IMG/VR virus record: IMGVR_UViG_3300042486_001634
Span: 1 to 35,664 of that record
Strand: one strand, 5' to 3'
Length of the DNA stretch: 35,664 bases
From: a virus
Each line of letters begins with the position of its first letter. Within the stretch, counting starts at the first letter, position 1. The notes beneath the pieces were generated by a model. It had not been told where the DNA came from. It searched no databases and worked only from the letters and a program-made list of their open reading frames with translations. This document shows positions 3,578-34,774 of the stretch, piece after piece. The position numbers and the translations under genes were made by a program.

Positions 3578-4009
3578 TTAATTATTTTTTTTATCTTCTC
3601 CATATAAAAATTTTGAATATTTTGGAAATTCTTTGTCGAATTTTTTTATAAAAATACCTGATAAAATATTACACATATTCTCTTCAGGTCCTCCGATGTT
3701 TTGAATCTTAGCATTGTCCTTTAATCCCATTTTTTGATGTTGGAATTCGTGAACCCATTCATGACTTAACGTTCTAAGAACATCAATCAATAACCTATTG
3801 CCACTTAAAACAAATATTTCACCTTTAGGGCGTCTAACACCTGTGGTCATTTTTACACTCCTATTAGGTAAAAAATTAATATAAACATCCCTCTTCAATG
3901 GTAAATAAGTTTGAACAAACTTAACAAACTCTTTAATAACATTGATTTGTTTTGATGTTATTGAATTATCAATATTTTTGAAACATACCTTCATTGTAAA
4001 TAAATACAT
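3578..4009 (-). CDS. HExxH zinc metallopeptidase-like protein
   Basis: This 143-residue protein carries HEWVH at residues 83-87 (a zincin HExxH active site) in the context TLSHEWVHEFQHQ, and a downstream glutamate pair at 109-110 (GGPEEN) that could supply the third zinc ligand as in gluzincins. It is smaller than secreted proteases and lacks a signal peptide, so it is probably intracellular. The ATG at 4009 overlaps the glf stop as TAATG. A second ATG at 3994 (MKVCFKNID) is preceded by TGTATTTATTTACA and may be the real start. Substrate unknown. Confidence 0.8.
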   Translation of the reverse strand: MYLFTMKVCFKNIDNSITSKQINVIKEFVKFVQTYLPLKRDVYINFLPNRSVKMTTGVRRPKGEIFVLSGNRLLIDVLRTLSHEWVHEFQHQKMGLKDNAKIQNIGGPEENMCNILSGIFIKKFDKEFPKYSKFLYGEDKKNN

Positions 4010-5112
4010 TAAAGTTCAGATATCTTCACCAATGCTTGAGCAATAACTTGGTGCATATCATAATAGACATAGCTTCCCAACCTACCACCAAAAATATACT
4101 TATCAAGACCTTTAGTTAGTTCTTGGTATTTGTTATATATTTCGGTGTTTTTAGTATCTCTAATCGGATAATACGGCTCGTTGGTACCATCATAGTCATT
4201 TGGGTATTCACGACTTATAATCGTTCCTTTTTGATTCTGATGGTCAAACCATTTATGTTCTAATATTCTTGTGTAAAGTGTTTCTGAATCTGTATAATTC
4301 ATAACAGGAACTCCTTGGAAGTTATCCTGTTCAAGTTGTTCTGTCTCCCATGTTAAACTTTTATACTCTAGTTTACCATACTGATAGTCAAAGAATTTAT
4401 CAATTGGGCCAGTGTAAATTACTTTATTCGCAATTGAATCATAATAATCTTTATGATTGAAGTAATCTGAATTTAAAAGAACGTCTATCCCTTCTAACAT
4501 TTTCTCAAATATTTGAGTGTACCCACCGATTGGTATTCCTGTGTACTTGTCATTGAAGTAATTACTACCCCAATCAAATCTAACAGGTAATCTTTTAATA
4601 ATGGCAGGTGGTAATGAAGTACATGGTCTATTCCATTGTTTTTCAGTGTAACCCTTGATTAGTTTTTCGTAGATATCTTTACCAACCATTGAAATCGCTT
4701 GTTCTTCAAGGTTTGTTATCTCACCTGTGAATTTCTGAGATTCAATCTTTTCTTTTGCTTGTTCAGGTGTATTCACCCCCCACATTTGATTAAACGTCCA
4801 CATACTGAAAGGTAGTGTAAACATCTCATCCTTATAATTTGCAATAACATTGTGTGTGTATTGTTTAAACTCTGCAAATTGGTTCACATAATCCCACAAC
4901 TTTTTATCATTTGTATGGAATATATGTGCACCATATTTGTGAACGTGAATATTATTAATGTTTTCTGTATAACAGTTTCCACCAATGTGGTTTCTTGAAT
5001 CAATAACTAAACATCGTTTACCTTGTTTGGTTAACTCATGGGCACATACACTCCCAAAAATTCCCGCACCTACAATTAGGTAATCATATTTGTTATTATC
5101 CACTAATATCAT
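4009..5112 (-). CDS. glf: UDP-galactopyranose mutase
   Basis: This 367-residue flavoenzyme is expected to interconvert UDP-galactopyranose and UDP-galactofuranose. The N-terminal FAD-binding Rossmann motif is clear (YLIVGAGIFGS, about 10-21), followed by the acidic end of beta-2 (VIDSRNHIGGNCYTE). Family signatures GYTEKQWNRP, YYPIRDTKN and the C-terminal GGRLGSYVYYDMHQVI are all present. Length is normal for bacterial UGM. It overlaps the upstream GT2 gene by ATGA and the downstream peptidase by TAATG. With the neighbouring glycosyltransferases it suggests a galactofuranose-containing glycan made during infection, on the host surface or the virion. Confidence 0.95.
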   Translation of the reverse strand: MILVDNNKYDYLIVGAGIFGSVCAHELTKQGKRCLVIDSRNHIGGNCYTENINNIHVHKYGAHIFHTNDKKLWDYVNQFAEFKQYTHNVIANYKDEMFTLPFSMWTFNQMWGVNTPEQAKEKIESQKFTGEITNLEEQAISMVGKDIYEKLIKGYTEKQWNRPCTSLPPAIIKRLPVRFDWGSNYFNDKYTGIPIGGYTQIFEKMLEGIDVLLNSDYFNHKDYYDSIANKVIYTGPIDKFFDYQYGKLEYKSLTWETEQLEQDNFQGVPVMNYTDSETLYTRILEHKWFDHQNQKGTIISREYPNDYDGTNEPYYPIRDTKNTEIYNKYQELTKGLDKYIFGGRLGSYVYYDMHQVIAQALVKISEL

Positions 5113-15100: not shown

Positions 15101-15133
15101 CAAAAAACCCCACCTGAATTAACAGATGAGGTT
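15101..15133 (-). terminator. Intrinsic terminator of the large noncoding RNA
   Basis: On the minus strand an 11-bp stem without mismatches (arms 15123-15133 and 15106-15116, three G-U pairs) with a 6-nt loop is followed by six T residues in a row or more. It lies at the 3' end of the gene-free region, in the direction set by the promoters upstream. Confidence 0.9.
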
Positions 15134-16095
15134 TAGTGGCTAAAAGGTTGAGAATACACCTGTTTTTGAGAATCTTTGGAAGGATTATGTGGTTCCCTTC
15201 GTTTCCACCATCTTTTGAATGGTAACTCTCATCGCCGATTGGTTAGACCAATCACTCCTAAAGGTTTTAACTACTCTTTCATTACTCAACTCTCTTCAAT
15301 CTTGCGAACTGACTCAGGATTCGACTCCTTAGAGGTCTTTGGTAAAAATACACATCAACTTGCGGTCTCAGTGTGCCATGGACAACCCATGACTAGGTAG
15401 GCGACTTTCATCAAAACCTGATGGACACTTATGCTTATTTTTTTCTGAGTATAACTTTTACATTAACATAGTAAATTATAAGTTTGTGTGTCGTGGATGA
15501 TAGAAGTAGTGGTCCACCGTAAGCTCCGTCATCTTTTGAACGACAGAATACTAAACTACTCCTTGAGATGTCCCCACCTCCATATGTCAAGTCAACTTCA
15601 AACAAAGAATCTTGGTAGATTCAAAGTAGGGATAGTAACAGCACCACCTGTACTCTATCATACCTTTCGGTTTTAAGTCCACTTTCGTATTGGAATTCGC
15701 AATGATGAGATTGGAGGTCCCACTTCTTACAATATCCCTACGAGTTATTCTTATTGGTGTTCCCACCTCAACCAAACGACCCACATCGCTTGGTCACCTT
15801 AACTCTTCACCTACAGTGTTACCCTCGATTACTAAAGCCAAGATGATATCTCGCTTGTATACTCGAGCTCCGTTACCGAAGCCGCAATCCTGTTAACACA
15901 ACAGGTTCACTTTATCCCACTTTCGTGGTTTATTTAACGACCATATACGGCCGATTACCTTTATCAAACTATCATCATTCCGAAGAACTACTTTCGAATG
16001 AACGGATAAATATTTTATATTCAAAGAACGAATTTCAATTTTAAAAAAGGAAACCATAGTTTTACAACAACGTCAACCTTTTCGTGATTGGTCTA
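15101..16095 (-). ncRNA. Candidate giant structured noncoding RNA (about 1 kb)
   Basis: This stretch of about 1 kb has no convincing gene but has its own promoter (16096-16127) and terminator (15101-15133). On the minus strand I find many perfect hairpins: arms 15975-15980/15996-16001; CCAC-GAAA-GTGG at 15917-15928; 6 bp at 15889-15905; 9 bp with a 6-nt loop at 15771-15794; GGTG-GGAA-CACC at 15756-15767; ACC-GAAA-GGT at 15662-15671; GAATCT-ACCA-AGATTC at 15607-15622; 5 bp at 15528-15544, 15409-15423, 15377-15391 and 15207-15223. A 9-bp long-range helix joins 15626-15634 with 15733-15741. A 12-bp perfect helix joins the 5' end (16084-16095) to 15244-15255. Size, GNRA loops, phage setting and adjacency to a tRNA recall GOLLD and ROOL RNAs; membership is unproven and it may be a new class. 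The exact 5' end could trim a few bases of the closing helix. Confidence 0.75.
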
Positions 16096-16127
16096 CAAAG
16101 GTAAGATAAACTTTTCAATTTGTCAAA
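16096..16127 (-). promoter_or_regulatory. Promoter of the large noncoding RNA, TTTG-N20-TACCTTTG
   Basis: On the minus strand TTTG (16124-16127) and TACCTTTG (16096-16103) are exactly 20 nt apart. The spacer is almost identical to that of the promoter at 16212-16243. Transcription would begin within the 5' arm of the 12-bp closing helix. Confidence 0.8.
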
Positions 16128-16140
16128 CTTTTTTGTAAAC

Positions 16141-16207
16141 TTTTTTTTTGACAACCTTACTCTATAACTACCGATAGTGAGATTTGGTTTCGGTGATTGT
16201 CAAATGT
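16141..16207 (-). ncRNA. Candidate short structured RNA
   Basis: Between two promoters, about 66 nt of minus-strand sequence can fold with a 7-bp end helix (195-201 with 150-156 in 16xxx numbering, one G-U), an adjoining 5-bp ACCGA/TCGGT helix, or alternatively an ACTA-TCGG-TAGT hairpin. There is no start codon with a meaningful frame. Its 5' part (GACAATCACCGAAA) resembles the start of the large RNA (GACCAATCACGAAA). It has no clear terminator of its own. It could be a small RNA, a relic tRNA or a leader of the larger transcript. Confidence 0.35.
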
Positions 16208-16211
16208 TTCA

Positions 16212-16243
16212 CAAAGGTAAGATAAACTTTTCAATTCGTCAAA
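16212..16243 (-). promoter_or_regulatory. Tandem promoter, TTTG-N20-TACCTTTG
   Basis: TTTG (16240-16243) and TACCTTTG (16212-16219) on the minus strand are 20 nt apart. It lies just downstream of the tRNA gene and would drive the short RNA and read into the large RNA. Confidence 0.8.
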
Positions 16244-16267
16244 CTTTTTGTGAAGTTTTTTTTTTAG

Positions 16268-16340
<73 letters not shown>

Positions 16341-16379
16341 ATATATTTTTTATTCAAAGAACTTTCAAATTAAGTCCCA

Positions 16380-16411
16380 CAAATGTAATCTTATTTTTTC
16401 AAATAATCAAA
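16380..16411 (-). promoter_or_regulatory. Promoter of the tRNA gene, TTTG-N20-TACATTTG
   Basis: On the minus strand TTTG (16408-16411) and TACATTTG (16380-16387) are 20 nt apart. The tRNA 5' end lies about 40 nt downstream, leaving a short leader for RNase P to remove. Confidence 0.8.
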
Positions 16412-16459
16412 CGTCTGTGGGACATTTTTTTTTGCGAGACTCTCATCTCATTTGTTTCA

Positions 16460-16491
16460 CAAAGTTAAAACAAAATTCTCATTTTGTCAAA
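16460..16491 (-). promoter_or_regulatory. Most upstream tandem promoter, TTTG-N20-TAACTTTG
   Basis: On the minus strand TTTG (16488-16491) and TAACTTTG (16460-16467) are 20 nt apart. It precedes the tRNA promoter and may give extra readthrough. The 50 nt between them hold no gene. Confidence 0.75.
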
Positions 16492-16525
16492 TTTTATTTT
16501 GTAAAACTCTATTTGTGGGGATGTT

Positions 16526-16577: not shown

Positions 16578-16997
16578 TTATTTTAAAATAAATTCGAACA
16601 ATTTATATAAAAAAGTATTAATTTTCATATTTTTCATGTCGTTTAGGGTAAAATAACCCCAATCTGTATGTTCATGACCATCAATTGCTTCTTCTAAATC
16701 AGGAATTAATTGTTTCTCCACATTAATAATATAAGTGTACATCAATCCCTTCATTTTACTACCATCTCTAGTATATCTTGGTATTATCCCCGCGAACTCT
16801 AATTCAAAGTTGTTTATGTTTATGGCAGTTTCTTCAAAGAATTCTCTTCTTGCCGAAATTTTAATTTCTTCTCCATACTCAATTTTACCTGCAGGTATTG
16901 ACCATTCACCTTGCCCTAATGATTCATCATTCCTTTTACAGATTAAAAATTTGTCACCGCATTTAACGATAACTCCAACGTATCTTTTAGCATTCAT
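16578..16997 (-). CDS. Nudix hydrolase
   Basis: This 139-residue protein should hydrolyse a nucleoside diphosphate linked to another group. The Nudix box is at residues 37-59 (GKIEYGEEIKISARREFFEE followed by TAI), matching Gx5Ex7REUxEExGU with alanine in place of the late glycine. The preceding QGEWSIPAG is typical of the MutT-like fold. Length is normal. It is divergent from the DUF192 gene, and the two starts are 13 nt apart around a TATTTATA/TATAAATA element. Phage Nudix proteins may clean nucleotide pools or remove RNA caps; the substrate cannot be read from sequence. Confidence 0.93.
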   Translation of the reverse strand: MNAKRYVGVIVKCGDKFLICKRNDESLGQGEWSIPAGKIEYGEEIKISARREFFEETAININNFELEFAGIIPRYTRDGSKMKGLMYTYIINVEKQLIPDLEEAIDGHEHTDWGYFTLNDMKNMKINTFLYKLFEFILK

Positions 16998-20320: not shown

Positions 20321-21442
20321 TTAATCTTCCCTATATTCTTTTAATAATTCTTCGTTAGATAATGCACTATATTTTTCACTCAATTTACTGGTGTCAATAT
20401 CGTCATACATTACATGTAGTGTATCATCAAGTTCTTTTGCAAGTTCCAATGACTCACAAATAACATTAAGAACACAATATGGATTTGCATTTGATGCTGG
20501 TCTTCTATCTTCAAGATAACCTTTCCAAGTTTCACCTACAGATTTTGGAACTCTGATTGACGCTCCTCTGTCAGATACTCCCCAACTGAACTTATCAATT
20601 GATTGTGTTTCATGTTTACCTGTTAATCTTAGATGATTGTTTGAACCATAGTTTTCAATATGAACTTTTGCTCTTGATTCAAATACTTTGAAGATTGAGT
20701 TGAAGTATTCCTCTCCTCCTGTTTCTCTCATTCTTTTGTTTGAAAAATTCGTATGTAATCCTGAGCCATTCCAATCTCCTGTTGTTATAGGTTTTGGATG
20801 TAGTTCAATTTGATATCCATATTTTTCGGCAATTTTGTAAAGGAAATAACGAGACATCCATAAGTCGTCAGCGGCTTGTACTTTACCTTTGGCAAATACT
20901 TGGTATTCCCATTGTCCTAATGCAACTTCAGCATTTGTTCCTTCAATACCAATTCCATATTTCAAACACATTTCCAAATGTTCTTCAGTCAAACTTCTTC
21001 CAACCATTTGTCCACCAACACCACAATAATATGTTCCTTGAGGGTCAATGATACCACCATTATTGAATCCTATAATTGGTTTGTTATGTCCTGAACGAAT
21101 GAAATATTCTTGTTCAAATCCAACCCAAAAATCCTCATCCTCTTTACCCAACTTTGCTCTGTCATTTGTTTCGTGAACTTTACCTCTACTATCCATTACT
21201 TCACAAAGAACGTATACAGTACTGTATTCCGAAATCAAACTTTTCACATAAACTTTAACAGGTTTCAAATAACAATCAGATGAATAACCTTCTGCTTGTC
21301 TTGTTGATGACCCATCAAACCCCCATTCAGGTATTTCTTCAAGGTCTCTTTTTTCGTTAACGTCAATGACCTTAACTTTACTTCGTAAGTTTGGTTCTGG
21401 TTTATAACCATCAAGCCAAACATATTCTAATTTAATTTTCAT
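20321..21442 (-). CDS. glnII: Glutamine synthetase, GSII type
   Basis: This 373-residue enzyme should make glutamine from glutamate, ammonia and ATP. It has the beta-grasp start with WGFDGSSTRQAEGYSSD (about 40-57), the catalytic core WVGFEQEYFI, the GSII marker NGSGLHTNFSNKRMR, the ATP-site GVSDRGASIRVPKSVG, and EDRRPASNANPY near the end. Its length fits the short eukaryote-like GSII class (about 350-370 aa), not the 470-residue GSI or 700-residue GSIII typical of Bacteroidetes. All key motifs look intact, so it is probably active. It overlaps the small upstream gene by ATGA. An auxiliary metabolic gene for nitrogen supply is the simplest reading. Confidence 0.95.
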   Translation of the reverse strand: MKIKLEYVWLDGYKPEPNLRSKVKVIDVNEKRDLEEIPEWGFDGSSTRQAEGYSSDCYLKPVKVYVKSLISEYSTVYVLCEVMDSRGKVHETNDRAKLGKEDEDFWVGFEQEYFIRSGHNKPIIGFNNGGIIDPQGTYYCGVGGQMVGRSLTEEHLEMCLKYGIGIEGTNAEVALGQWEYQVFAKGKVQAADDLWMSRYFLYKIAEKYGYQIELHPKPITTGDWNGSGLHTNFSNKRMRETGGEEYFNSIFKVFESRAKVHIENYGSNNHLRLTGKHETQSIDKFSWGVSDRGASIRVPKSVGETWKGYLEDRRPASNANPYCVLNVICESLELAKELDDTLHVMYDDIDTSKLSEKYSALSNEELLKEYRED

Positions 21443-25937: not shown

Positions 25938-26780
25938 ATGATTAAGTTTATAAACATACTATCAAACGTTATATCTGAACAAAAAAGATATAAATTGTCG
26001 CCCGAAGACTATACCAAACTATTGGAGTTAACCGATAGATTATGGACTTTACGTAGTAAAGAAATACCAAGAAAGATTGAGGTAGACCAAATGGAATTCA
26101 TGACCGCAGATGGTAGTGAAGGTAAAGTTAGAATATTTTTAAATCCAAGATATAAGAATTATGGTCAAATGGATTTGAAACCAAGAACAACAAGGAATCC
26201 ACAAAAGTTTGTAATGCAACTTAACCCAAAACTATTTGGTTCAAAAAAGAATTTATTTTTAACCCTATACCATGAATTAATGCATGCAACCGACCCAAAC
26301 TTTACTACAAGGTCTAATGACACATATTGGAAAGATTATGACCCAACAGTTGATGAAAAATATTGGGGTCATCCTGTTGAATTTAGAGCCGTTACAAATG
26401 AATTTTTAGAAGGTTTAGTTAATGAGTTTAGAAGAAGAAATGATGGTGTAGTTAAAGTTGAAAACAGGCAATTACTTTTAAAGTCATTAAACAATATCCT
26501 TAACTATTTTGCCAAAGGCGAACCCTTATCAAGATTATCTTTAGATGTTATTAATAGAATAAGTGATGAAGGGTTAAAAGATACAAGAATTGCAAACTTA
26601 TTAGCGAATATTTCAACCGAATATCCTGAAACAAGCGAATTCATGAATAATAAAGAGCCATATTATTTAAAACTAATTAACACAATTAAGAAATTTAATT
26701 CCAGTATGTGGCCTAGATTTCTGAAAATGTTATACGATACAGTTGATGAAATAAAAGATATAATAAATAAAGGGACTTAA
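25938..26780 (+). CDS. HExxH metallopeptidase with N-terminal tag
   Basis: This 280-residue protein has a zincin active site YHELMHATD (HELMH at residues 112-116), preceded by a hydrophobic strand-helix (NLFLTLYH). Downstream [14 protein letters not shown] (about 143-156) could supply the third ligand from Glu148. The start [17 protein letters not shown] looks like a packaging tag ending in an IxE site rather than a secretion signal. The C-terminal half is helical. Substrate unknown; a structural-protein or host-protein target is possible. Its end overlaps the convergent fibre gene by 4 nt inside a terminator. Confidence 0.82.
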
Positions 26781-26793
26781 ATTAGTCCCTTTT
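26769..26793. terminator. Bidirectional terminator inside convergent gene ends
   Basis: AAAGGGACT and AGTCCCTTT form a 9-bp perfect stem with the loop TAAATT. The stop codons of both convergent genes lie in and around this loop. T-rich sequence follows on both strands. Confidence 0.85.
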
Positions 26794-29293
26794 CTTTTGC
26801 AATTTGTTCAAGTAAATACAATTTCTTTTCTTTGACATCTAAAAGATTTGATTGTTCTTTAATCGCTTCGATACATAAAGCAACAATATCAGGATATTTT
26901 ACTCTATAATAAATCTTTTCATTACCAAAAACCACCTCAGGTAATACCTCTTTAAGTTCTTGTGCAATAAATCCAATATCATCTCCTTTCTTATCTTTGT
27001 CTGAACTAAATGGAGTATTTTTCCATGTGTATCTAACACCTCTAATTTTAGATATTTTTTTAATTGATTCAGTTATTGGTTCAACATTCTTTTTTAATCT
27101 ATAATCAGATGGACCTGGAGGTCCTGTCGCACCTGTCGCACCTTGTGCCCCTGTTGGTCCTGTTGGTCCTGTAGCACCTTTTGGCCCTGTTGGGCCTGCA
27201 GGGCCAACACTTCCTTGTTGACCTCTTGGTCCTTGGGCACCTGTCGCTCCTTGAGCTCCTGTTGGACCTGGAGCTCCATCAGGAGGTTCCAATGTATTTT
27301 GAGCACCTTTAAAACCTTGAGCACCTTGAGCTCCTAGTGCTCCTTGAGCCCCTGTTGCACCTTGAGAGCCCTGAACACCTTGAGCTCCTTGAGCTCCATT
27401 AACTCCATTAGTACCAATGGCACCTTGAGCACCTGTTGGACCTATTGGGCCTATTGGTCCTGTTGCCCCTTGAGAACCTTGAGGTCCAGTACCAGATTGA
27501 GTTCCTTGTGCCCCTTGAGCTCCTTGACCACCTTGTGAACCTTGAGACCCTGTCGCCCCTTGTGAACCCTGAGCACCTTGAGCCCCTTGTCCTCCTTGAG
27601 ACCCTTGAGCTCCTTGACCACCTTGTGAACCTTGAGCCCCTGTTGCTCCTTGAGCTCCTGTTGCCCCTTGTGCTCCTTGTCCTCCTTGAGAACCTTGAGA
27701 ACCTTGAGAACCTTGGCCACCTTGAGAACCTTGTGCTCCTGTTGTCCCTTGTGAACCTTGAGCTCCTTGGGCACCTTGACCTCCTTGGGAACCCTGAGGA
27801 CCTGTTGCACCTTTAGAACCTTGAGCTCCTTGGGCACCTTGGCCTCCTTGAGAACCCTGAGGTCCTGTATTACCTTGAGACCCTGTATTACCTTGAGCAC
27901 CTTGGCCTCCTTGAGAACCCTGAGGTCCTGTATTACCTTGAGACCCCGTAGCCCCTTGAGCTCCTTGCCCTCCTTGAGACCCCTGAGGTCCTGTATTACC
28001 TTGAGACCCCGTAGCCCCTTGAGCTCCTTGTCCTCCTTGAGACCCCGTAGCCCCTTGAGCTCCTTGCCCTCCTTGAGCCCCGTCAATACCAGGTATTCCT
28101 TGAGCTCCTTGTCCTCCTTGAGCTCCTTGGTTACCTGTATTACCCTGAGCCCCTTGTCCCCCTTGAGCACCTTGAGCACCTGTAGACCCTTGAGCTCCTT
28201 GTCCTCCTTGAGCTCCTTGTCCTCCTTGAGCTCCTTGTGTTCCAATAACTCCTTGACTTCCTGTTGCCCCTTGAGACCCTTGTCCTCCTTGAGCCCCTTG
28301 AGCCCCTGTTGACCCTTGACTTCCTGTTGCCCCTTGAGACCCTTGTCCTCCTTGAGCCCCTTGAGCACCTGTTGACCCTTGAGAACCTGTTGCTCCTTGA
28401 GCTCCTTGTCCTCCTTGGGTTCCTTGTGGCCCTGTATTACCTTGAGAACCTTGGGCTCCCTGAGCTCCTTGTCCTCCTTGAGCACCTTGTCCTCCTTGAG
28501 CACCTTGAGACCCTTGTCCACCTTGGGCTCCTTGTCCACCTTGAGCACCTTGTGGTCCTGTATTTCCTTGAGAACCTTGGGCTCCCTGAGCTCCTTGTCC
28601 TCCTTGAGCACCTTGTGGTCCTGTATTTCCTTGAGAACCTTGGGCTCCCTGAGCTCCTTGACCTCCTTGGGCTCCTTGCGGTCCTGTATTTCCTTGAGAA
28701 CCTTGTCCTCCTTGAGAACCTTGTCCTCCTTGAGTTCCTTGCGAACCTGTATTACCTTGTGAGCCTGTATTACCTTGAGCCCCTTGTCCTCCTTGAGTTC
28801 CTTGCGAACCTGTACTACCTTGTGAACCTTGAGCTCCCTGACCTCCTTTTCCACCTTGTGAACCTTGAGCTCCTTGAGCCCCTTGTGAACCAATATTACC
28901 TTTAGGTCCTTGCGCCCCTTGAGCCCCCTGAGCGCCTTGAACACCTTGAGCCCCTTGAGCTCCCTGAGCTCCAACCGCACCTTGTGAACCAACAGACCCT
29001 TGAGAACCTGTTGGTCCAGTATCTCCTTGAGAACCTGTTGGTCCTGGAGGTTGTGGACTACCAGCCCATCCTGACCCAGTAATTAAATTACCTGAGTTAT
29101 TTATAAAAACACTTACTTTTAAATTGGTACTAACTCTATAATTTGGGTAATTATTATCCATAGATAAATAAGTCGCACCTCCCCTTTTAAATTTAAAAGT
29201 ACTGTTTTCAATAACCCAATCAGTTTGTAGACTGTTTGAATCAAAAAATTGAATTATACCGTCAACAGGTATTATTAGTATATCTTCAGCCAC
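26777..29293 (-). CDS. Collagen-like tail fibre 3 with S74 chaperone domain
   Basis: This 838-residue fibre begins with a GTG at 29293 that overlaps the previous gene's end; the start MAEDILIIP is homologous to fibre 1 (MAKDILIIP), which supports it. Residues 1-85 form an attachment head. About 86-725 are Gly-X-Y triplets dominated by GAQ, GSQ and GGQ, a collagen-like trimeric rod. The end (from [12 protein letters not shown]) is a peptidase S74 intramolecular chaperone, with [16 protein letters not shown] typical of the family; it should trimerise the fibre and cut itself off before the Ser. It is probably a tail or head decorating fibre. Confidence 0.92.
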
Positions 29294-31922
29294 TTATTTT
29301 GTTCTTTAAATTGTTTATTCTTTCATAAATAGAATTAATCCTATGTTGTTGTTCCTGAACACTACCAATACCTAAGCTAACCATTAATCCGTAGTTCACT
29401 GATTTATAACCATCATCATCCGTAAATACTATACTCGGAACAACTTCTTCAACTTGTTGAGCTATTACACCAATAGCCTTACCTTCAAACGCATCTTTAA
29501 CTGCAATACTTTGGTTATCTTTAATTTTTGTGTGTTCGTAATCCCAAACAAACGTAACCCCTTCAATTTTTTTAGTTGTGTCTAAAACATTTTCAAGTTT
29601 TATAATATTATCTTTAAGTCTCTTGTCAGACGGAGGTCCAACATTACCTTGAGCACCTTGAGCACCTTGAGTACCTTGAGGTCCTTGAGACCCTTGAGTA
29701 CCTTGAGCACCTTGACCTCCTGTACTACCTTGAAATCCTTGAGCACCTGTCGCACCTTTTGGTCCTTGAGCTCCTTGACCACCTGGTGAACCAAGAGCGC
29801 CTGGGTCTCCCCCAAACCCTGTAGCCCCTTGAGCTCCTACGGCTCCAGGTATTCCAGTTGGACCAAGAGGTCCAGGATTACCTGTGGCTCCTTGAGCTCC
29901 TGTTGCCCCTTGAGTCACATTTGCGGCTCCTTGAGCTCCTGTCGCCCCTTGAGTACCTTGAGCTCCAGTGCCTCCCTGAGTACCTTGAGCTCCTTGAGCA
30001 CCTGTCGCCCCTTGGGACCCTTGAGCTCCTTGTGCACCTTGAGACGCTCCTTGTGCTCCTTGAGCTCCTTGTCCTCCTTGTGCACCTTGAGCACCAGTCG
30101 CACCTTGAACAGAACCTTGAGCACCTGTTGCCCCCTTTGGCCCTATAGCTCCTTGTGAGCCTTGTGAACCTTGAACTGCACTTTGAGCCCCTTGAGCTCC
30201 TTGTCCTCCTTGAGCACCTTGAGCTCCAGTCGCTCCTTGAACCGAACTTTGAGCACCTGTGGCTCCTTGTGAACCTTGGGCCCCTGTGGCTCCTTGTGCA
30301 CCTGTATTAGCCCCTTGAGCTCCTTGTGAACCTTGTGAACCTTGAGCTCCTTGTGCTCCTTGTGCTCCTGTATTTGCCCCTTGGGCCCCTTGAGAACCTT
30401 GGGCTCCTTGAGCTCCTGTGGCTCCTTGTGCTCCTGTACTTGCGCCTTGAGCTCCTTGTGAACCTTGTCCTCCTTGTGAACCTTGTGAACCTTGAGCACC
30501 TGTTGCTCCACCCTGAGCGCCTTGTGAACCTTGTGCACCTTGTGAACCTTGTCCTCCTTGTGCACCTGTTGCTGCACCTTGAGCCCCTTGTGAACCTTGT
30601 GCACCTTGGGGTCCCTCAGGTGCTTCGTTTTCGTTCGGTACTCCTTGCGCCCCTTGTACTCCTTGAGCTCCAACGGCTCCTGCGGTTCCTTGTGCTCCTG
30701 TAACTCCACCTGTCGCGCCTTTTGGACCTATAGCCCCCTGAGCACCTGTAGCCCCCTGAGCACCTGTACTCCCACCTTGTGCCCCCTGTGAACCTTGAGC
30801 TCCTTGGGCTCCTTTGGCTCCTTGAGCACCTGTATTAGCTCCTTGGGCTCCTTGTGAACCAACAGCTCCTTGAGCCCCTTGAGAACCTTGGGCACCTGTA
30901 TTAGCTCCTTGGGCTCCTTGTGAACCAGCGGTTCCTTGGGCTCCTTGTGAACCTTGGGCTCCTGTGCTTGCACCTTGAGCTCCTTGTGAACCTTGGGCTC
31001 CTTGAGACCCTGTTGCACCTTGGGCTCCTGTATTTGCACCTTGGGCTCCTTGCGAACCTTGGGCCCCAACCGCACCTGCAGTTCCCTGTGCACCTGTATT
31101 TGCTCCTTGAGACCCTTGTGAACCTTGGGCTCCTTGAGACCCTGTCGCACCTTGGGCTCCTGTATTCGCGCCTTGGGCTCCTTGAGAACCCTGACCTCCT
31201 TGTGCACCTGTAAGACCTTGAGCTCCTTGGACTCCACCTTGAGCTCCTTGTGAACCTTGTGCTCCTTGAGCTCCTGTAGCACCCTGAGCCCCTGTATTAG
31301 CTCCTTGAGCCCCTTGTGAACCTTGACCTCCTTGAGCTCCTTGCCCACCTTGAGCTCCAGTATTAGCACCTTGAGCCCCCTGAGAACCTTGTCCACCTTG
31401 AGCTCCTTGAGCTCCTTGGTCACCCTGAACACCACCTTGTGCTCCTTGAGCTCCTTGTGCCCCAACACTATTTTGGAACCCTTGAGCTCCTTGAGGTCCT
31501 TGAGCACCTTGAGGTCCAGTATTACCTTGGGCGCCAGTATTACCTTGAGCTCCTTGTGCTCCTTGGGTACCTTGTCCCCCAACATTACCTTGTGAACCTT
31601 GTGAACCTTGTGAACCTTGTGAACCTTGAGGTCCGATTAACCCTGATGTTGGACCAACCCAAACACCTGATGAATTAACCATGAGAGTTCCTCCTACAAA
31701 TAACCCGCCAGAGTTATCAATAGATGCGCCTGAAGTAACAACACTACCTGCGGAAATAACTAAACCATTCGCAACAGTAGATGAAGATAATGTTAATGTT
31801 GGTACCCCTGATGAAGACACATTAAATTGCAAAGGTACTCCATCCACACCATCCTCAAACACAATATGTGGATTAGGATTTGATGTGGTACCTGTTGGAA
31901 ATATCGTTACATTACTTGCCAT
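29286..31922 (-). CDS. Collagen-like tail fibre 2 with S74 chaperone domain
   Basis: This 878-residue fibre has a head of about 95 residues ([20 protein letters not shown], later [20 protein letters not shown]), then collagen-like Gly-X-Y repeats to about 765, and an S74 end beginning [16 protein letters not shown] with [16 protein letters not shown]. Unlike fibres 1 and 3, its rod has many one-residue interruptions of the form G-A-N-T-G or G-x-S-T-G, at least a dozen, at fairly regular spacing. The ATG at 31922 overlaps the stop of fibre 1 (TAATG), and its own end overlaps the GTG of fibre 3, so all three are coupled. Confidence 0.92.
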
Positions 31923-34774
31923 TATTTTAATTTTGATTCAATATATTCAAGTTCTTTATCTATGTCTTCAATAAATAGTTGTTGTTCTTTTATGGCTTCA
32001 ACCAATACTGAGTTAAGTTTGGTGTAATCTAATCTATAATATCCATTGGAACCTAATTCTACTACCTCAGGATAATATTGTCTAACATTTTGAGCTATAA
32101 GTCCGATTGTGTGTAACTTTTTATTTTTTTCAAAATATTTGTATTCTGTTTCATTTAAATTGGTATTCCAATCATATTCAACAACTTCCAATTTCATTAA
32201 AGTTTCTAAAGAATCTTTTAATGTCTCAATACCTGTTTTTAATCTAATATCAGAACCATAGCATGGGTTATTACTTAAAATTTGTCCGTCTGCTTGAACA
32301 TCTTGATAGAACGCTGCCACTGTGTCACAACTAATAAATTGCCAAGGAGTATTCCCAGCAGCATTCCAATCTGGCGCATCTTGGTCACAAGCGGCTTGTT
32401 TGTGAAAATAATAAAACGATATAGGGTTGCCACAATCAAATGAAGAGTCAACGTAAACATCAATCAGCCCCCCAGCACAATCACAAGCTTCAACATCCGA
32501 ATTTCCAAAACAAACGGAAATCTTCGTACAAGCCGCAGCTGGTGGTCCTGCGGTTCCTTGGGCCCCTGTTGCTCCTTGGGCTCCTTGAGGTCCCGTTGCT
32601 CCTTGGACCCCTGTTGCCCCTGGCGTACTTCCTTGAGGACCAGGAGCACCTTGAACAGAACTTTGGTCTCCTTGAGCACCCTGAGCACCTTGAGAACCCT
32701 GAGCACCTTGAGCACCTTGAGCACCTGCAGGCCCAAGAGGACCCTGAGCACCTTGAGAACCCTGAGCACCCTGAGAACCTTGTGGTGCAATACCTTGTGG
32801 CCCTTTCGCTCCGATACTACCTGGAGGTCCCGCAGTACCAGGATTACCTTGAGCACCTTGAGCTCCTTGTGTTGCACCTTGAGGACCAGTATTGCCTTGA
32901 GCTCCTGTCGACCCTTGAGGACCAGTATCTCCTTTACCTCCTGTCGCACCTTGTGCTCCCGTATTACCTTGAGCACCTGTTGCTCCTCCTCCACCTGTCG
33001 CTCCTCCTCCACCTGTTGGGCCAATAGCTCCTGTACCTCCACCAGCTCCTTGTGAGTTTGTCGCACCTTGAGCCCCTTGTGGTCCTATCGCACCTTGAGC
33101 CCCTTGAGGTCCTGCCGATTCAGGTGTATTACCTGTTGGCCCTTTTGGACCTATAGCTCCTTGAGCCCCCGTTGCACCAGGTCCTCCTTGAGGCCCTGTA
33201 GCCCCTTGAGCTCCTGTGTTACCTTGAGCTCCCGTTGCCCCCGCAAATCCTGCAGCTCCTACGGCACCTTGGGCCCCCGTATTACCTTGAGCTCCTGTGT
33301 TACCTTGAGCTCCTTGAGGTCCTGTCGCGCCTTGAGCACCTCGATGTCCTTGGGCTCCTGTCGCACCTTGAGCACCTGTGTTACCTGTCGCACCTTGAGC
33401 TCCTAGATGTCCTTGGGCTCCTGTCGCACCTTGAGCTCCTTGAGGTCCTTTTGCTCCTTGAGCCCCCGTATTACCTTGAGCTCCTGTCGCCCCTTGAGTA
33501 CCTTGTGGTCCTTGGGCTCCTTGAGGACCAATATTACCTTGAGGTCCTTTCGACCCTTGAGCCCCTTGCGACCCTTGGGCTCCTTGAGGTCCAATATTAC
33601 CTTGAGCCCCTTGTGGCCCCTGAGCCCCTTGTGGTCCCGTTGCCCCCTGAGCACCCGCATGTCCTTGAGCTCCCGTTGCCCCTCCATCGCCTTTAACTCC
33701 AACAGCACCTTGTGCTCCTGTATTACCAACGGCTCCTTGGGCTCCTTGAGCCCCTGTGTTACCTGTTGAACCTTGAGCTCCTGTGTTACCTACTGCTCCT
33801 TGAGCTCCTTGAGCTCCTGTGTTACCTGTTGCACCCTGAGCCCCAGCATGTCCTTGGGCCCCTGTTGCACCTTGTGAACCTTGTGGTCCTGTTGCACCTT
33901 GAGCACCCGTATTACCTTGAGCACCTGTCGAACCTTGTGACCCTTGTGGTCCTGTTGCACCCTGAGCCCCAGCATGTCCTTGGGCTCCTGTTGCACCTTG
34001 TGAACCTTGTGGTCCTGTTGCCCCTTGAGCTCCCGTATTACCTTGAGCGCCTGTCGAACCTTGTGAACCTTTCGGTCCCTGTGCTCCTTGAGGTCCCTCT
34101 GACCCTTGAGCACCTGTATTACCCTGAGCACCTTGTGGACCTACAGCTCCTTGAGCCCCTGTATTACCTTGAGCTCCTTGAGGTCCTTGAGCTCCTGTGT
34201 TACCAGTATTTCCTTGAGCCCCTTTATGTCCTTGAGCTCCCGTATCTCCTTGAGCCCCAACATTACCTGTCAAACCTTGTAACCCAACATGCCCTTGTGC
34301 TCCAATTGGGCCTTGAGCCCCTTGAGCCCCTTGAACTCCTATTGGCCCTACATCCCCTTGCGAACCCGTACTTCCTTGAGCACCGTTTGAACCAGTGACT
34401 CCAGCATCTCCTTTAACTCCTTGTGAACCTGTATTACCTTGAGCACCTGTATTACCTTGAGCTCCTTTAGCTCCCTGAGCGCCTGCGATATTTGTAGTAG
34501 GTCCTACCCAATTTGAAGTTCCATTTACTACTTGAACCCCACCAACAGAAAGATAATTTTTAACGTTGATAGTGTTACCTGAGATAGTATTATTAATAGG
34601 GTCGAAGTATATTGAGATAAATGGTGAAGTATTGGAACTAAAAATAAGTACGTTATTCGGCACTTGAATGCTGAGAACATTAGTGCTGCTAGCACTATTA
34701 CTGAAATTAATATATGGCGTTTTGTTTGGTGCTAAACCATTAAACCCAGGTATTATTAATATATCTTTCGCCAT
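31922..34774 (-). CDS. Collagen-like tail fibre 1 with Cys-rich domain and S74 chaperone
   Basis: This 950-residue fibre has a head (1-95; [40 protein letters not shown]), a long Gly-X-Y rod (about 96-730) with frequent GNT and GAQ triplets, then a roughly 100-residue domain with eight cysteines (start [18 protein letters not shown], end NNPCYGS), and the S74 chaperone ([16 protein letters not shown], then [20 protein letters not shown]). The Cys-rich domain may be the receptor-binding tip exposed after chaperone release. A TATTTATA element lies 20 nt before the ATG. Confidence 0.92.

Follow-up and report, generated by a model that had tools for sequence, protein, structure and literature searches.

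What does a virus encode in about a kilobase of DNA that holds no credible gene? The question is posed by positions 15101-16095 of IMG/VR virus record IMGVR_UViG_3300042486_001634, whose complete sequence of 35,664 bases was analysed and is referred to here as the window. An earlier note on this DNA had described the region as a gene-free RNA with dense secondary structure, running from a promoter to a terminator in a Bacteroidetes phage, and had offered three identities for it: a GOLLD RNA, a ROOL RNA or a comparable RNA of a new class. Our analysis indicates that the region almost certainly encodes a GOLLD RNA. The coordinates of the region stand, the longest open reading frame inside it reaches 74 amino acids, and the transcript folds about four standard deviations better than its shuffled versions (z=-3.97), in keeping with the dense structure described.

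The identity follows from a search with the Rfam GOLLD and ROOL covariance models, a check that the earlier note had suggested. The GOLLD model RF02032, which describes the conserved 3' domain only, matches positions 15563-15145 on the minus strand with 322.2 bits, against a curated cut-off of 150 bits, and does so over its full length (model positions 1-416 of 416). ROOL gave no covariance-model match in the region even at E<=10, and neither other large RNAs nor other Rfam families matched it. GOLLD is therefore retained among the three identities and ROOL falls away; as membership in GOLLD is secure, the RNA is of a known type and does not form a new class. GOLLD RNAs are located in phages and prophages, often by transfer RNA (tRNA) genes, and their expression rises during phage lysis. 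Phage location and tRNA proximity are both present here, in a virus record with one adjacent tRNA gene, for methionine, at 16340-16267.

A degenerate GOLLD pattern search of IMG/VR returned 111 loci, 93 of which match the query by blastn. Those matching at full length, 84 viral homologues from related phage contigs such as the earlier note had wished to see collected, are 69-100% identical and were clustered at 95% identity into 37 representatives of 810-845 nt. GOLLD RNA is also carried by the 634-kb phage LR745206 and the 642-kb phage LR756502. The GTDB species genomes yielded 51 pattern matches, none similar to the query by blastn, and no prophage copy with the motif was found among them, which suggests that the GOLLD-bearing phages of this clade are not commonly resident as prophages.

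The consensus of the 37 representatives contains 189 pairs, with compensatory change in 121. When the pairs are set against a null that reshuffles identical substitutions over an unchanged tree, 28 of them pass E<=0.05; almost all of these lie in helices, and they are spread over both domains of the RNA. The 5' domain (about 15971-15564), which the Rfam model does not cover, thus proves to be structured and conserved. Changes among the homologues are compensatory, rather than codon-like or scattered over unconserved arms. Three GNRA-loop hairpins singled out earlier (15917-15928, 15756-15767 and 15662-15671) have stems that are 99-100% paired and the same loops in 36-37 of the 37 homologues, two of the three showing significant covariation. 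The proposed long-range helices hold up less well. A 4-bp core (15740-15737 with 15630-15627) of a 9-bp helix is kept, while the flanking pairs are disrupted and incompatible with helices that covary. The 12-bp helix thought to join the ends (16095-16084 with 15255-15244) is a coincidence: its 5' arm is variable, and its 3' arm lies in a local hairpin (15252-15238) that is itself supported by covariation.

These features can be compared with env-38 GOLLD, an RNA of 833 nt solved by cryo-electron microscopy (cryo-EM) as a 14-mer nanocage (Kretsch et al. 2025, PMC12286853). In env-38 the linker 497-538 lies inside the cage and, at bridge B8, the L21a loop of one half-shell kisses the identical loop of the other, a GC/CG switch having been used as evidence (PMC12286853). 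The window RNA resembles env-38 in the full-length match of the 3' domain, a 5' domain of about 400 nt, a core of about 830 nt, the position of the linker, the GNRA loops, a self-complementary L21a, its phage origin and an upstream Met-tRNA. It differs in that the window group has CG, not GC, in L21a together with an L21b hairpin of the UCGCAAG type, and in that the cage of env-38 has been seen by cryo-EM whereas the window RNA is known from sequence alone. ROOL, which forms an 8-mer cage (PMC12286853), is likewise a large ornate phage RNA near tRNAs, but its Rfam model, as said, leaves the window RNA unmatched. From the first promoter to the terminator, the locus is laid out as follows.

16460..16491, minus strand: the first Bacteroidetes-type promoter in the cluster of RNA genes (match to TTTG-N-TAnnTTTG; one of four repeats of about 55 nt).
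16380..16411, minus strand: Bacteroidetes-type promoter upstream of the tRNA (motif match, repeat).
16353..16362, minus strand: GTTCTTTGAA, a boxA-like element of the tRNA leader that recurs before GOLLD with 20 nt of context.
16267..16340, minus strand: initiator-type tRNA-Met(CAU) (ARAGORN, Rfam tRNA; C1.A72 mismatch, GGG/CCC anticodon stem).
16212..16243, minus strand: Bacteroidetes-type promoter between the tRNA and GOLLD (motif match).
16096..16127, minus strand: GOLLD promoter (motif match; 35 of 36 representatives have an equivalent ahead of GOLLD).
16020..16029, minus strand: boxA-like antitermination element GTTCTTTGAA upstream of GOLLD, conserved, with a core as in the Bacteroidetes ribosomal RNA operon (rrn) spacer boxA.
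15564..15971, minus strand: 5' domain of GOLLD, corresponding to the cap domain of env-38, conserved in 84 homologues with covariation; outside the Rfam model.
15145..15563, minus strand: GOLLD 3' domain (ring domain), RF02032.
15436..15491, minus strand: variable AU-rich linker (gapped, variable alignment columns), in a place that matches the env-38 linker.
15363..15433, minus strand: non-nested covarying contact 15433-15363 (C-G in 22, G-C in 15; E below 0.05).
15322..15323, minus strand: L21a loop dinucleotide CG (bridge B8), self-complementary in 37 of 37.
15304..15305, minus strand: L21b loop GC (bridge B9), invariant columns G667 C668.
15101..15133, minus strand: intrinsic terminator of the GOLLD transcript, a hairpin followed by a T-run.

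The L21a dinucleotide, scored on hairpins, is GC in 29, CG in 7 and AT in 1 of the 37 homologues, and self-complementarity that survives such switches is what is required of a loop that kisses its own copy across half-shells. For bridge B7, in which kissing loop L20 meets J13/15, the pair 15433-15363 is significant and 15515-15423 borderline, the mapping to env-38 numbering being uncertain. By analogy with the published env-38 structure, the window GOLLD would form a cage as well. GOLLD forms one of the largest known natural RNA-only assemblies, and the clade of 84 homologues shows its 5' cap domain and an inter-subunit loop under selection.

Two clues to function emerge: an antitermination signal of the ribosomal RNA (rRNA) type and a selective linkage to an initiator tRNA. 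The promoter predicted at 16096-16127 is of Bacteroidetes type (TTTG-N20-TAnnTTTG), and the terminator predicted at 15101-15133 is also borne out. The window contains 14 such promoter sites versus 2.4 expected, a number reached by none of 100 shuffles. Four repeats of about 55 nt within 16095-16513, each made of a promoter of this type and an A/T-rich tail, drive the tRNA/GOLLD cluster, and a unit of about 60 nt (16211-16149) lies between two of them.

In the stretch from promoter to 5' domain, all 37 leaders contain the boxA core GTTCTTT[GAT]A, which reads exactly GTTCTTTGA in 35. It sits 40-102 nt before the 5' domain, with flanks that align poorly among leaders, and of the 50 times that GTTCTTTGAA appears across the 372 kb of representative loci, 34 are at this pre-GOLLD position. 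Two Bacteroidetes genomes, to which the rrn comparison extends (16S rRNA was found in two of eight metagenome-assembled genomes), have AAGTTCTTTGACATATTG with the core AAGTTCTTTGA between the spacer tRNAs and 23S rRNA, where the rrn boxA is located. Among gamma-proteobacteria the boxA consensus is GYTCTTTAANA (PMC5725501), from which GTTCTTTGAAA differs at one position, and boxA has been described as necessary and sufficient to form the rrn antitermination complex (PMC10250234). GOLLD is thus likely to be transcribed by a Nus-modified polymerase and antiterminated like rRNA. The host group named in the earlier note is backed by the promoter type together with a boxA whose core is identical to that of Bacteroidetes rrn spacers. 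The locus resembles an rRNA operon in that identical core and in the order tRNA, boxA, long structured RNA; it differs in that GOLLD shares no homology with rRNA, and in that a promoter separates the tRNA from GOLLD and a boxA stands ahead of each.

The window tRNA carries the determinants of an initiator: a CAU anticodon, C1.A72 and the anticodon stem TCGGG/CCCGA. Among the tRNAs found by ARAGORN in the representatives, Met(CAU) accounts for 15 of 16 adjacent to GOLLD versus 5 of 66 at a distance (Fisher p=2e-11), and a motif scan plus one slightly more distant tRNA raise the total to 20 of 37 representatives. Depending on the genome, tRNA-Met(CAU) lies upstream of GOLLD or 2-20 nt downstream; no tRNA is found downstream of GOLLD in the window genome. 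The 1-72 mismatch of the neighbouring Met tRNAs is kept through different bases (C.A, A.A, U.U and G.A), as expected under selection for initiator function. The order initiator-like tRNA, boxA, GOLLD recurs in phage LR745206. Neither a boxA leader for GOLLD nor the initiator nature of its Met-tRNA is mentioned in the GOLLD literature searchable here, and within that literature both are new.

We propose, with a probability of roughly 0.7, that the locus encodes an env-38-type GOLLD that would be antiterminated through boxA, would form a cage and, as a best guess, would act in translation. The proposal builds on direct support for GOLLD identity, the two conserved domains, the self-complementary L21a and the linkage to boxA and initiator tRNA. 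A host-type Bacteroidetes -33/-7 promoter would start a transcript of about 990 nt, and boxA near its start would, as it does on rRNA operons, bring in the host's NusB/S10 antitermination complex and thereby protect this long untranslated RNA from Rho termination. Transcription would stop at the intrinsic terminator, while in relatives with a tRNA 2-20 nt downstream RNase P would presumably make the GOLLD 3' end instead. The RNA is predicted to fold into its cap and ring domains and, if it behaves as env-38 does, to self-assemble into a hollow 14-mer cage whose subunits are joined by kissing loops and A-minor contacts. With an initiator-type tRNA-Met(CAU) encoded in the same cluster, GOLLD might take part in a takeover of translation during infection, for example by holding or delivering translation components. 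This role is speculative and is suggested by the initiator-tRNA linkage, the transfer-messenger RNA (tmRNA) genes near GOLLD in several relatives and the rRNA-style leader. GOLLD is reported to have bound ribosomes in pull-downs, and the cages have been suggested to hold tRNAs or ribosomes (Kretsch et al., PMC12286853).

A more far-reaching reading, which we entertain tentatively and consider doubtful, is that large Bacteroidetes phages carry an rRNA-like unit in which a boxA-antiterminated GOLLD nanocage and a dedicated initiator tRNA, accompanied in some relatives by a nearby tmRNA and a second, unclassified RNA of about 430 nt, would reprogram translation initiation during infection. If true, it would provide a function for the long-unexplained GOLLD cage.

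Several observations weigh against the 0.7 proposal. The comparison with env-38 was made from published length, numbering and features in place of a sequence alignment, and the assignment of GTTCTTTGA before GOLLD as a putative rrn-type boxA draws on sequence, position and conservation alone. Phage LR756502 has GOLLD without boxA and beside Glu-like tRNAs, and in Acinetobacter phages GOLLD lies among ordinary elongator tRNAs; given these other neighbours, the initiator link is a feature of the present clade. Even there, 17 of the 37 representatives have no recognisable adjacent tRNA, and the link is strong, not obligatory. Furthermore, some of the neighbouring CAU tRNAs are aberrant, with a long variable arm (L105, L102) or unusual D arms (the L071 group), and may be incapable of initiating translation.

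A competitor that we place somewhat short of even odds treats GOLLD as a cage that phages would use for storage or packaging in general, unconnected with translation, its tRNA neighbours reflecting the clustering of RNA genes and its boxA the need of any long untranslated RNA. The ordinary tRNA array around the Acinetobacter-phage GOLLD and the representatives that lack an adjacent tRNA would fit such a cage, and the function of GOLLD is stated as unknown in PMC12286853; clustering of RNA genes sits poorly, however, with a clade neighbour that is specifically of initiator type and whose position, upstream or downstream of GOLLD, varies among genomes. We regard as unlikely a role in counter-defence, in which the initiator tRNA and GOLLD, joined in some relatives by RNA ligase and tmRNA, would sustain translation against host nucleases that destroy tRNAs or stall ribosomes, with GOLLD sheltering tRNAs or acting as their decoy. 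A T4-type RNA ligase (PF09511) lies 2.3-4 kb upstream of GOLLD in 7 representatives, phage tmRNA genes lie 1-3 kb downstream in several relatives, and one paper proposes that phage tRNAs evade tRNA-targeting defences (PMC10264068); yet ligase and tmRNA are absent from the window, and large phages often carry such genes in any case. Similarly improbable is a reading of GTTCTTTGA as a processing site or the site of a phage factor: a small hairpin often precedes it, but both its core and its surroundings are those of the boxA found between tRNA and 23S in Bacteroidetes rrn spacers, and the single difference of GTTCTTTGAAA from the gamma-proteobacterial consensus (PMC5725501) speaks for a Nus boxA. 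A degraded protein-coding region or chance folding, which the few short reading frames crossing the region might suggest, is ruled out by the RF02032 score, the compensatory changes in the homologues and the folding z=-4.

Further RNA genes accompany GOLLD in its relatives. The upstream initiator-type tRNA-Met(CAU) genes of L105, L077, L064, L013 and L102 measure 88-90 nt and have a long variable arm resembling that of class II tRNAs. Glu-like tRNAs stand beside GOLLD in L164 (about 3770-3880 and 4830-4903), L165:3394-3481 and L101, several of which, by eye, have an additional hairpin within the D arm. Relatives with a tRNA downstream of GOLLD have a conserved non-coding element of about 430 nt directly after it (L070:7655-8090, L014:5050-5487, L103:1268-1700, L060:2586-3020, L008:11672-12100 and others), laid out as AGTGACTCC, GAGTWTAAA, a hairpin with TCACTMA and a terminator. 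This element has no Rfam match, shows some covariation in an alignment from which the misplaced locus L111 was excluded, and is possibly a new structured RNA of the GOLLD transcription unit. The tmRNA genes, usually on the opposite strand, include L070:9911-10301, L056:482-874, L103:2832-3247, L044, L085 and others, and the ligase cluster, of T4 Rnl1 type, is found in L068, L060, L070, L008, L071, L069 and L106.

No protein neighbour common to the GOLLD clade was found, the commonest cluster being GOLLD itself read in reverse. A NUDIX hydrolase gene (16578-16997) adjoins the GOLLD cluster in the window, and in L022 a NUDIX-like reading frame, recognised by eye, lies directly downstream of GOLLD. 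The gene content of the window (glutamine synthetase, sugar enzymes and collagen-like fibres) and the length of its relatives' contigs, which reach 642 kb, suggest that it is a piece of a larger phage. Phage-encoded homologues of glutamine synthetase and UDP-galactopyranose mutase lie at 20321-21442 and 4009-5112, and three consecutive GC-rich genes (26777-34774) encode collagen-repeat proteins of 838-950 amino acids with S74 chaperone domains, which are probably phage fibres.
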